A DNA stretch of 64,000 bases, from assembly GCF_024158125.1 (NCBI RefSeq), contig NZ_JAMZFT010000002.1:620001-684000 (forward strand), given 5' to 3'. How positions within the stretch are numbered: position 1 is the stretch's first letter; the number at the start of each line of letters is the position of its first letter. The notes below the pieces were generated by a model. It ran no database searches. It was given only the letters and a program-made list of their open reading frames with translations, and was not told the DNA's origin. Below are positions 41,667 to 45,355 of this stretch, one piece after another. The position numbers and the translations under genes are program-made. Source of the stretch: Futiania mangrovi (GTDB lineage: Bacteria; Pseudomonadota; Alphaproteobacteria; Futianiales; Futianiaceae).

Positions 41667-41694
41667 GGAATAGCAGCGGGGCGACGCGCGTTTC
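41667..41694 (+). promoter_or_regulatory. ECF-type promoter of the sigma/anti-sigma operon
   Basis: GGAATA (41667-41672), 16 bases, then CGTTTC (41689-41694). This is identical in both elements and spacing to the site upstream of the sulfite-oxidase-family gene, which strongly suggests that the ECF factor encoded just downstream recognises both. Distance to the GTG at 41823 is about 130 bases. Confidence 0.72.
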
Positions 41695-41822
41695 TTCTTG
41701 CCGTCAGGTCTCGACCCGAAGCCCCGCGAACCCACTGGCAAGGCACCCGCGTCCGGGCTAGCCTTGTCCCCGGCGAAGAAAGGCCGGGAAACGGCAGGCG
41801 GCGAAAGGACGCAAGGGCAGGG

Positions 41823-42350
41823 GTGTCGGAACGGGTCAGACAGGCGCTGCTGGCGCATCGTACGCGGCTCTTCGGTTATGCGATGAGCCTGGCGGGCGAC
41901 CGCGAAGCGGCTGAGGATCTGTTGCAGGACTGTGCGGTCAAGGCCCTGGCCGCCGCGCGGGTCCCGGCGGATGCACCGGCGTTGCGCGCGTGGCTCTTCC
42001 GGATCCTGCGCAATGCGTGGATCGACCGGGGGCGCAGGTTGGGGCAGGTCGCGCTCGTCGCACTGGACGAGGCGGCCGCGCAGGAGGCGCCGGACGCGGT
42101 TTGCGACCGGCGCATGATCGATGTGGTGACCGTACGCCAGGCGCTGGGAACGCTGACGCCGGCCGGGCGCGAGGTCATCGCGCTGGTGGATTTCGCCGGG
42201 TTCAGCTACCAGGACGCGGCGGACATCCTGGATGTGCCCGTGGGCACGGTGATGAGCCGGCTGTCGCGGGCGCGCGGACAGATCCTTGCGGCGGTCGCCG
42301 CGGGAAACGTGCACCCGCTGGCACGGCGCCGCGGGCGATTGGGAGCGTGA
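41823..42350 (+). CDS. ECF RNA polymerase sigma factor
   Basis: The 175-residue protein has sigma2 (LFGYAMSLAGDREAAEDLLQDCAVKAL ... LFRILRNAWID, residues 16-65) and sigma4 (AGREVIALVDFAGFSYQDAADILDVPVGTVMSRLSRAR, about 120-157) and no sigma3. The start GTG at 41823 has AAGGGCAGGG upstream. It is followed after 7 bases by a membrane anti-sigma factor. It likely drives its own operon and the sulfite-oxidation unit at 43293. Confidence 0.93.
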   Translation: MSERVRQALLAHRTRLFGYAMSLAGDREAAEDLLQDCAVKALAAARVPADAPALRAWLFRILRNAWIDRGRRLGQVALVALDEAAAQEAPDAVCDRRMIDVVTVRQALGTLTPAGREVIALVDFAGFSYQDAADILDVPVGTVMSRLSRARGQILAAVAAGNVHPLARRRGRLGA

Positions 42351-42357
42351 CGAACGG

Positions 42358-43170
42358 ATGCGTGCCGGGGCGAAATTTTCCCGCGAAATGCTGAACGCCT
42401 ACGTTGATGGCGAAACGGACGCCTGGACCTCTGCCGAAATCGCCGAGGCAGTGGCCGGCGATCCGCGTCTTGCCGCCGAGGTGGCTGCGCTGGCGCAGGC
42501 GAAGTCCGCGGCCGCCGGCGCATTCGCCCAATGGGCAGGTCCGGCGCCGGACATCGCGGCGCTGCGCCCGGCCGGGGGCCGCACCGCGGACCGGCGCCTG
42601 GCCTGGTGGGCGGGCGGGCTGATCGCGGCGTCGCTCGCGCTTGCCGCCGTGCTCGGCCCCGCGGTCTGGCCGTTTGCCGTTTCGCCAGACCCCGTGCGCG
42701 CCTGGGCCGGCCACGCCGTGGCGGAGTTCGAAATCTGGGCCGACGCGCAGCAGGGCGAGACCGGGCTCAGCGGCGCGGCCGGATCGACCGTTCTCGTCGC
42801 CGGTCTGCCGCATGCGATCCCCGACCTTTCGATCGCGCGGCTGAGCGTGGCGCATCTGGAAGTGATGCAGGCCGCGGACGGCCCCGCCATGTTCGTCGGC
42901 TACCTGGGCCGGAACGGTTGCCGGCTCGGCTTCTGGGTGACGCCCGCGCCGGAGGGCCTGGAGGAGAGCCTGGTCCTTGGCGGCGGCCGCGAAGGCATGC
43001 GGCTCGCGCGCTGGCGGGTGGGGGATACCGGTTACGCGGTGCTGGCCCGTGGCATGGACGATCGGCGCTTCGACGCGGTGACGGCGGTTCTGCAGGCCGA
43101 GAGCCGGCGCGGCGGGGCATCGGACACCCGTGTCGCGGGCCGTGTCTACCGCGCGCCCTGCGTGGGTTGA
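42358..43170 (+). CDS. membrane anti-sigma factor
   Basis: The 270-residue protein has a short cytoplasmic N-terminal anti-sigma segment (SREMLNAYVDGETDAWTSAEIAEAVAGDP, 9-37) lacking the zinc-binding HxxxCxxC motif, one transmembrane helix (about residues 82-102) and a periplasmic C-terminal domain of about 165 residues. It sits directly behind the ECF gene and should hold the sigma factor inactive until a periplasmic signal, perhaps sulfite or redox stress, is sensed. Confidence 0.85.
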   Translation: MRAGAKFSREMLNAYVDGETDAWTSAEIAEAVAGDPRLAAEVAALAQAKSAAAGAFAQWAGPAPDIAALRPAGGRTADRRLAWWAGGLIAASLALAAVLGPAVWPFAVSPDPVRAWAGHAVAEFEIWADAQQGETGLSGAAGSTVLVAGLPHAIPDLSIARLSVAHLEVMQAADGPAMFVGYLGRNGCRLGFWVTPAPEGLEESLVLGGGREGMRLARWRVGDTGYAVLARGMDDRRFDAVTAVLQAESRRGGASDTRVAGRVYRAPCVG

Positions 43171-43189
43171 GCGGCCGCCAAAAAGAACT

Positions 43190-43217
43190 GGAATAATTCG
43201 AATACGTCCTGCGTTTC
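43190..43217 (+). promoter_or_regulatory. ECF-type promoter of the sulfite oxidase unit
   Basis: GGAATA (43190-43195), 16 bases, CGTTTC (43212-43217), the same pattern as at 41667. It lies about 75 bases before the ATG at 43293, in the 122-base gap after the anti-sigma gene. Confidence 0.72.
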
Positions 43218-43292: not shown

Positions 43293-44639
43293 ATGTCCAA
43301 GCGAGAGAAGACCGAAACCGCGCGCGCCAGCCGCACGCCCGAGGAAATCCGCACGATCTACGCCGAAAACCCTGAGAAGGCCGACTGGCTGGTGTTCGGC
43401 CGCAAGCCGAATTCCGACCGCCGCGGGTTCCTGAAGGGCGCCGGTCTCGCCACCATGGGCGCGATGCTGGGAACCGCGATCCCGTTCCACCGGAACATGC
43501 CGGAAGGCCTGATGCCCGCGGCGTTCGCACAGGATACGGGCATCGACCTGATGGCCGAGAAGCAGGGCCTCACGGTCCTGGGCGACCGGCCGCTCAACGC
43601 CGAGACGCCCGCGCACCTGCTGGACGACAAGGTCACGCCCTACGAGCGGTTCTTCGTCCGCTCGAACGGCCTTTACCCGCAGACCGCGCTCGACATGAAG
43701 GCGGACGACTGGACGCTGACCATCGACGGCGAGGTGGAAAACCCGCTCACCCTGACCATCGCCGACCTGAAGTCGCGCTTCGAGACGGTGACGCAGCAGC
43801 TCTGGATCGAGTGTGGCGGAAACGGGCGCGCGTTCTTCAATCCGGGCGCCTCGGGCAACCAGTGGACCGTCGGCGCGGTCGGCTGTCCGGAATGGACCGG
43901 TGTGCGGCTCGCCGACGTGCTGAAGGCCGCGGGCCTGAAGCCGTCTGCAGTCTATACCGGGCACTATGGCAATGACGTGCACCTCTCCGGCGACCCGGAG
44001 AAGGAGGTGATCTCGCGCGGCGTGCCGATCGAGAAGGCCATGGGGCCGGAGTGCATGATCGCGTGGGAGATGAACGGCCAGCCCGTTCCCGCCCTGCACG
44101 GCTTCCCGCTGCGCCTCGTGATTCCGGGCTATCCGGGTTCGGCCTCGCACAAGTTCCTGAACCGCATCTGGGTCCGCGACAAGGAGCACGACGGCTCCAA
44201 GATGACGGGCTACTCCTACCGGATGCCGGCCTATCCGGTCGCGCCGGGAACGGAAGTTCCGAAGTCCGACATGGTCGTGATGATGGAAATGCCGGTGAAG
44301 TCGCTGATCACCTTCCCGCAGACCGGGGTCGAGGTGAAGGCGGGCGAGGCCACGGAAGTGCGCGGCCACGCATGGTGCGGCAAGGGCGACGTCGCGGCGA
44401 TGCACGTCTCGCTCGACTTCGGCCAGACCTGGGCCGAGGCGGAGCTGGATGCGCCGCGCAATTCCTTCGCCTGGCAGCACTGGCGCGCCAAGGTCACCCC
44501 GCCGCAGGCCGGCTATTACGAGGTCTGGGCGCGGGCGACCGACAAGGACGGCGTTACCCAGCCGCCGGTCGTGCCGGGCTGGAACCCGCGCGGCTATGGC
44601 AACAACATGCAGCACCGGATCGCGATGTTCGCGGTCTGA
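43293..44639 (+). CDS. sulfite oxidase-family molybdopterin oxidoreductase, Tat-exported
   Basis: Probable periplasmic sulfite dehydrogenase passing electrons to cytochrome c. The 448-residue protein has a twin-arginine signal (SDRRGFLKGAG, R43-R44) after an unusually long 42-residue N-region, as in SoxC relatives. The molybdenum-ligand cysteine is C174 in WIECGGNGR; a C-terminal Mo-co dimerisation domain follows (about residue 330 onward). A cytochrome c gene follows and an ECF promoter precedes it. The ATG at 43293 follows GGGAGGAGA. Related enzymes may use other oxyanions, so sulfite is likely but not certain. Confidence 0.88.
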   Translation: MSKREKTETARASRTPEEIRTIYAENPEKADWLVFGRKPNSDRRGFLKGAGLATMGAMLGTAIPFHRNMPEGLMPAAFAQDTGIDLMAEKQGLTVLGDRPLNAETPAHLLDDKVTPYERFFVRSNGLYPQTALDMKADDWTLTIDGEVENPLTLTIADLKSRFETVTQQLWIECGGNGRAFFNPGASGNQWTVGAVGCPEWTGVRLADVLKAAGLKPSAVYTGHYGNDVHLSGDPEKEVISRGVPIEKAMGPECMIAWEMNGQPVPALHGFPLRLVIPGYPGSASHKFLNRIWVRDKEHDGSKMTGYSYRMPAYPVAPGTEVPKSDMVVMMEMPVKSLITFPQTGVEVKAGEATEVRGHAWCGKGDVAAMHVSLDFGQTWAEAELDAPRNSFAWQHWRAKVTPPQAGYYEVWARATDKDGVTQPPVVPGWNPRGYGNNMQHRIAMFAV

Positions 44640-44764: not shown

Positions 44765-45355
44765 ATGCAAGATCTGAAGGCTTTCGCGCTCGGTGTCGTT
44801 CTCTCTGCGGCGGCGGGCATCGTCGGCTATCACCTGCTCTCGGCGCCTTACGAGCAGCCGATCCCCGACCCCGCACAGCTTGCCGAGACGCGGGCGCGCA
44901 TTGCCGCCGAGGTCCGTGCCGAGGCGGAAGCCCGCGCCGCCGCGGAAGCGGAAGCCAAGCGCAAGGCGGAAGAAGAGGCCCGCGCCGCAGCGGAGGCGTC
45001 GGCCGCCGCAGCCCGGGCCCGTGCCGCGAACCCGATGGGCGCGCCGCGCGCCGGCTTCAATCCGCTGATGCCGGGCGGGGGAGCGGCGGGCGCGCAGCCG
45101 ACGACGAGCAAGTCCGGCGTGCCGCTCAACGAGGAATTCGGGAACCTGCCGGACGCGCCCGGCATGGAGGAAACCTTCTACACCTGCACGGCCTGCCACT
45201 CGACGGCGATCATCAAGCAGCAGCACGTCACAGACGCGCGCTGGGACGATCTGTGGCAATGGATGATCAACACGCAGGGCATGCCGGAGACGGACGAGGA
45301 GACGAAGAAGATCGTCCTCGACTATCTGAAGACGCACTTCTCCTCCGAACGCTGA
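44765..45355 (+). CDS. membrane-anchored cytochrome c, electron acceptor of the upstream enzyme
   Basis: The 196-residue protein has an N-terminal membrane helix (about residues 7-24), a roughly 60-residue Ala/Glu/Arg-rich helical rod, a flexible Gly/Pro/Ala segment and a C-terminal cytochrome domain of about 80 residues. One heme site, CTACH (C141, C144, H145), is present, with a methionine in the NTQGMPE segment as probable axial ligand. The gene order matches SorT-SorU-type sulfite dehydrogenase operons. A terminator-like hairpin follows. Confidence 0.87.
   Translation: MQDLKAFALGVVLSAAAGIVGYHLLSAPYEQPIPDPAQLAETRARIAAEVRAEAEARAAAEAEAKRKAEEEARAAAEASAAAARARAANPMGAPRAGFNPLMPGGGAAGAQPTTSKSGVPLNEEFGNLPDAPGMEETFYTCTACHSTAIIKQQHVTDARWDDLWQWMINTQGMPETDEETKKIVLDYLKTHFSSER

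Follow-up and report, generated by a model that had tools for sequence, protein, structure and literature searches.

Paired predicted promoter sites and a conserved cysteine pair at an ECF-linked sulfite oxidase locus of Futiania mangrovi

In Futiania mangrovi the gene for a periplasmic molybdopterin enzyme of the sulfite oxidase family adjoins a gene pair predicted to encode an ECF sigma factor and its membrane-anchored anti-sigma factor, and the same bipartite sequence stands ahead of both transcription units. One question then is whether the linked sigma factor reads both copies of this sequence and, if so, by what signal it would be released. Within the window, by which we mean the whole stretch of 64,000 nucleotides that was analysed, GGAATA-N16-CGTTTC occurs on the forward strand at 41667-41694 (GGAATAGCAGCGGGGCGACGCGCGTTTC), 156 nt upstream of the GTG of the ECF gene, and at 43190-43217 (GGAATAATTCGAATACGTCCTGCGTTTC), 103 nt upstream of the ATG of the oxidase gene (Table 1). 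The original prediction of identical elements ahead of these genes, separated by equal 16-base spacers, is exact, and both copies lie on the appropriate strand; the sequence common to the two promoters is the core only, the spacers themselves being different. With spacers of 15-18 bases permitted, these are the only two sites in the window against 0.01 expected by chance, and none of 100 shuffles gave two. The genome scan for the bipartite site that had been suggested was run, and among 3,391,920 bases the exact motif is found at these two positions alone, both at the sulfite oxidase locus. Five further matches have one mismatch, and two more (CGTCTC, with another spacer) appear when CGTYTC is accepted as the -10 element and spacers of 14-18 bases are permitted. 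All seven lie inside long open frames, most of which are G+C-rich at third positions, and for this reason no regulon target beyond the locus is proposed.

Table 1. Features of the sulfite oxidase locus in window coordinates
Feature	Position	Strand	Details
Predicted ECF promoter, sigma/anti-sigma operon	41667..41694	+	-35 GGAATA 41667-41672, N16, -10 CGTTTC 41689-41694
ECF sigma factor, 175 aa, GTG start	41823..42350	+	PF04542 and PF08281 over cut-off
Membrane-anchored anti-sigma factor, 270 aa	42358..43170	+	no Pfam over cut-off; weak zf-HC2 in homologues
Predicted ECF promoter, sulfite oxidase unit	43190..43217	+	-35 GGAATA 43190-43195, N16, -10 CGTTTC 43212-43217
Periplasmic molybdopterin sulfite oxidase/dehydrogenase, 448 aa, SorA-like	43293..44639	+	PF00174, PF03404; TAT-type signal RRGFLKG
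c-type cytochrome, 196 aa, SorB-like	44765..45355	+	N-terminal anchor, Ala/Glu-rich tether, C-terminal haem motif CTACH

Among the NCBIfam models, the sigma factor passes the cut-off for the sigma-70/ECF superfamily only. In a tree of ECF factors it falls, with weak support, outside the clade of those without a linked sulfite oxidase; the unlinked factors, RpoE6 included, form one separate group, and the deep branches with the window and RpoE4-like rows have a support of 72/92. The product of the following gene is read as an anti-sigma factor because its modelled domain plan, a helical N-terminal domain, one membrane helix (residues about 81-106) and a periplasmic beta domain, is that of an anti-sigma factor. 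In the AlphaFold2 model (mean pLDDT 79.9) the helical and the periplasmic domains are both confident, and the weak zf-HC2 match is N-terminal in the 16 of 21 homologues that show it. The best solved relative of the oxidase is SorA of Starkeya (2blf, E 3.5e-53), with the catalytic Cys aligned, and by fold family and this alignment the enzyme would work like SorA and SorT; it is not filed as SorA. Since its scores, 249.8 bits against NF052245 (SorA, cut-off 600) and 226.6 bits against NF052247 (SorT, cut-off 570), lie under the NCBI cut-offs, the substrate is one that we infer. In the same alignment the active-site VRYH of SorA corresponds to VRSN, the Asn of which is nearly invariant in this group of oxidases, a possible change beside the molybdenum site. 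The cytochrome matches NF052246 (SorB) under the cut-off (E 6e-7) and 2blf_B with an E of 0.002; its N-terminal anchor and long Ala/Glu-rich tether, which gives a TolA-like match, have no counterpart in the structurally solved SorB, which has 81 residues. No match to the oxidase was found in viral contigs.

This kind of circuit is already known from the sulfite responses of Sinorhizobium RpoE4 and Starkeya SigE, in each of which an ECF factor and its anti-sigma factor are joined to a sulfite oxidase and a c-type cytochrome. The Sinorhizobium precedent for ECF control of a sulfite dehydrogenase invoked in the original prediction proves to be stronger than was stated, and its choice of sulfite stress as a sensible signal agrees with both systems, in which RpoE4 and SigE control sorT and sorA via GGAAT/CGTC promoters with sulfite as the signal (PMC3511301, PMC6527743). 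The sites concerned were mapped by 5'-RACE or RNA-Seq (PMC6180224). The RpoE4-EcfR4-SorT-SorU-Azu2 system of S. meliloti (ECF26) shares with the window the order sigma factor, anti-sigma factor, sulfite dehydrogenase and cytochrome c, the cysteine pair of the anti-sigma factor discussed below, and a GGAATA-N16 promoter ahead of the sigma gene, which in S. meliloti reads GGAATA-N16-CGTCTC (PMC6180224). It differs in this -10 element, in the 15-base spacer at sorT (PMC6180224) and in the presence of an azurin gene, whereas the oxidase of the window is nearer to SorA and its cytochrome is anchored by a tether; the ECF factors are 44% and the anti-sigma factors about 30% identical. Starkeya novella SigE-SorAB likewise combines a linked ECF and anti-sigma factor with a SorA-like oxidase and a c-type cytochrome, and carries a GGAAT/CGTC promoter ahead of sorA (PMC6527743), but sigE has no such promoter and SorB is small compared with the anchored 196-residue protein of the window. 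At the present locus, the ECF gene is followed by that for a membrane-bound anti-sigma factor adjoining the oxidase gene, and a GGAAT(A)/CGT(C/T) element lies upstream of the gene for the sulfite-oxidising enzyme (43190-43217). The locus is thus very probably an RpoE4/SigE-type (ECF26-like) sulfite-response module, comprising a linked ECF factor, two promoters, sulfite as the signal, and the oxidase and cytochrome as output.

Which sigma factor reads the oxidase-side site can be judged from relatives of the oxidase gathered from whole genomes and named genome contigs, these being the best 80 oxidase matches and not a random sample. In these the ECF, anti-sigma, oxidase and cytochrome genes were found by profiles, and the DNA was then scanned for GGAAT-N-CGT(T/C). 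Of 21 named-genome loci in which an ECF gene is linked, 20 carry the motif ahead of the oxidase gene, always with a spacer of 16, compared with 1 of the 58 unlinked loci (Fisher p 1.6e-16, a rough guide only, as related loci are non-independent), and additional ECF-linked loci in other genomes are consistent with this pattern. Where the flanks are complete the contrast is 12/12 against 0/45, and a reversed-motif control found nothing in 90 loci. The sole ECF-linked exception (L077) keeps GGAATA-N16 and has an altered -10 element; at the sole unlinked locus with a site (L106) the contig stops shortly upstream. Because the site comes and goes with the ECF gene, it is most simply read by the neighbouring ECF factor, and a 16-base spacer found only where an ECF gene is linked provides a clean rule for finding such circuits. 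Scored against the motif of the relatives, the cores of the oxidase-side and ECF-side sites reach 23.8 and 16.1, respectively, the best score in shuffled 350 bp sequences having a maximum of 13.0. The oxidase-side site is close to certain, and the sigma-side site is weaker, yet above chance.

Another sigma factor might nevertheless be the reader, either EcfG, which recognises GGAAC-N16/17-CGTT, or one of two other ECF factors of this genome whose genes have GGAATA-N15/N16-CGT upstream, an explanation that we consider improbable. EcfG itself was rejected: its -35 element, GGAAC, is present at neither site in the window, both of which read GGAATA, and the site co-occurs with a linked ECF gene. 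Among the 31 sites found in relatives GGAAT is followed by A in 30, in most cases with AA or AT next, and GGAAC appears in none, a count to be read in the light of a scan pattern that itself demanded GGAAT. A general stress sigma factor is disfavoured also because the unlinked relatives include many Alphaproteobacteria, the site being found at none of the 45 fully flanked unlinked loci and so tracking the linked ECF gene rather than the lineage. The two further ECF genes carry GGAATA-N15-CGTTGT at -69 (L154, G000:C1:731552) and GGAATA-N16-CGTCCA at -233 (L155, G000:C1:1321438), and in S. meliloti RpoE1, RpoE4 and RpoE6 act in overlapping fashion on rpoE4 and sorT (PMC6180224). Their products are possible paralogues whose promoter use may overlap with that of the window ECF factor, which would give partial cross-talk as in S. 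meliloti, with the linked factor remaining the preferred reader.

Five RpoE6-related ECF genes without an oxidase gene (L192, L195, L196, L202, L204) have GGAATA sites at about -104 with a spacer of 15, and spacer length, 15 in the kin of RpoE6 as against 16 in the oxidase-linked loci, may separate two regulons. In Chelativorans xinjiangense (L063:5600-6030) an oxidase gene 76% identical to that of the window has no linked ECF gene; upstream of it lie just a C-terminal remnant of an anti-sigma gene, still ending ...SCLG, and a promoter one base off, GGAACA-N16-CGTCTC, such that the locus looks like a decayed circuit.

For the sigma-side site the nearest relatives (L143, L144, L183) show no counterpart upstream of the ECF gene, and the case for autoregulation is therefore made from the single genome. 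Loci of identical gene order in S. meliloti Ak57 and Aminobacter do have the site ahead of both the sigma gene, at a distance of 99-100 nt, and the oxidase gene, and in S. meliloti RpoE4 regulates its own gene (PMC3511301, PMC6180224). The oxidase promoter could be real and be read by the linked ECF factor with the copy at 41667 no more than a chance match, the sigma operon using some other promoter, as has been reported from St. novella, where sigE is not autoregulated, its promoter being one that SnSigE fails to drive (PMC6527743). This would accord with the absence of the site in the nearest relatives, with a G+C-rich spacer lacking the AA or AT that follows GGAATA in most oxidase-side sites, and with the leader of about 120 nt that transcripts starting from this promoter would carry. 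Such a coincidence appears unlikely, however, given an exact match of 12 bases with the right spacing, place and orientation, for which the expectation is about 1e-5 per few hundred bases, a score exceeding that of every shuffled upstream region, and the similarly placed sites in Ak57 and Aminobacter. We regard autoregulation as a likely, lineage-specific property of the F. mangrovi module. Of the autoregulated ECF circuit originally envisaged, the predicted control over the molybdoenzyme and cytochrome is supported by the relatives, and the sigma-side half is the weaker.

In the circuit that we propose, the anti-sigma factor would in the resting state keep the ECF factor at the membrane and, on the appearance of periplasmic sulfite, release it. 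The freed sigma factor would then direct transcription from both GGAATA-N16-CGTTTC promoters, raising expression of its own operon as well as of the oxidase-cytochrome unit, and the oxidase would convert sulfite to sulfate, passing electrons to the anchored cytochrome and thereby removing the signal. Release may proceed via a conserved pair of periplasmic cysteines, possibly a disulfide cleaved by sulfite.

These residues, Cys188 (codon 42919-42921) and Cys268 (codon 43159-43161), are both invariant in the alignment of homologues. Each of the 48 enzyme-linked anti-sigma factors, that of the window included, carries one Cys within GxxGCxx and another close to its C-terminus, the two being about 75-100 residues apart and the distance from the second to the end being 2-4 residues except in L188 (11 residues), even though these proteins are diverse, with 20-36% identity to that of the window. 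By contrast, none of 12 homologues whose ECF gene is not beside an oxidase gene in the DNA examined, S. meliloti EcfR6 among them, has the pair (Fisher p 9e-13 for 47 linked and 12 unlinked). Relative to the membrane helix, both cysteines lie on the periplasmic side. Disulfides form in the periplasm, and sulfite splits disulfides (sulfitolysis). Cys188 and Cys268 may form a periplasmic disulfide whose cleavage by sulfite would constitute the signal; in the AlphaFold2 model residue 268 is marked as a beta bridge with a confidence of about 60, a mere hint. How the anti-sigma factors sense sulfite has been called unknown (PMC6527743). The conserved cysteines are not discussed in the main text of either published paper on the RpoE4/SigE sulfite response, and a literature search combining sulfitolysis with anti-sigma factors found no paper in the collection searched.

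Sulfite could equally be sensed without the pair, the disulfide being structural, as periplasmic disulfides frequently are, and release following from proteolysis or from the binding of another ligand. We give this alternative an even chance. The sensor region weakly resembles the MucB/RseB fold (best E 9.4e-3, TM 0.2), which would suit a proteolysis-gated pathway, but the pair is present in every linked anti-sigma factor despite their low identity, and because it is absent in unlinked homologues of the same architecture its occurrence follows the enzyme rather than the fold. For sensing through the cysteines there is a further matter, as in S. meliloti sulfite supplied in the medium failed to induce the response and is assumed by the authors to be generated inside the cell (PMC3511301). 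A purely periplasmic sensor has to explain this, for example through export or loss of the added sulfite. In Sulfitobacter a gene for a TDT-family transporter, a candidate sulfite exporter, lies directly 5' of the ECF-anti-sigma-oxidase operon (L171:2557-3699). The occurrence of the pair in every oxidase-linked alphaproteobacterial anti-sigma factor examined, and in no unlinked homologue, reduces the question of sensing to an experiment on two residues. Outside this group, the beta-proteobacterial ECF-linked oxidase operon of Methylibium sp. T29 (L206:2102-4858), sought as independent support, has neither the GGAATA promoter nor the cysteine pair; its anti-sigma candidate looks unrelated and has a single cysteine, and the operon would represent a different solution to ECF-oxidase linkage.

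The cysteine pair, which brings a testable question to the window itself, is one point of added interest; the other, a probable intragenic promoter, concerns the relatives, since a scan of the window ECF gene found no internal GGAATA-N16-CGT site. Ten loci (L083, L090, L097, L105, L117, L124, L146, L151, L152, L179) carry this motif inside the sigma gene and upstream of the anti-sigma gene, in the linker that joins sigma domains 2 and 4 and in a fixed frame (E-Y-x5-R). A position at the LRN motif of sigma region 2 was rejected, as the codons there mismatch. The ten, in which the sigma operon is convergent to the oxidase unit, belong to one well-supported clade (16 rows, 100/100), whose remaining six rows have the motif in partly decayed form. 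Codons at the site are frozen: Arg is CGT in 15/15 and Glu is GAA in 14/14, although CGT makes up about 17-21% of Arg codons in these sigma genes and other Arg columns reach at most 69% for one codon. Such freezing in the sigma genes of one clade signifies a regulatory site under selection inside coding sequence, and the site is probably an internal promoter, dependent on the sigma factor, that serves the anti-sigma gene and acts as a brake on the circuit. A comparable proposal has been reported once, for an internal ecfR6 promoter inside rpoE6 of S. meliloti (PMC6180224). The RpoE6-EcfR6 system (ECF26) resembles these relatives, and not the window, in having a GGAATA-type promoter within the sigma gene (PMC6180224); it differs in lacking a sulfite oxidase and the cysteine pair, and its internal site lies at the 3' end of rpoE6 with a spacer of 15. 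Taken jointly, we put forward, tentatively and at rather less than even odds, that sulfite is sensed directly by splitting the disulfide between the GxxGCxx and C-terminal cysteines, which would free the tail and release the sigma factor, and that in the related clade the intragenic promoter supplies extra anti-sigma factor as the brake. At three further loci (L149, L150, L182) an intragenic site occurs at another position in the linker.
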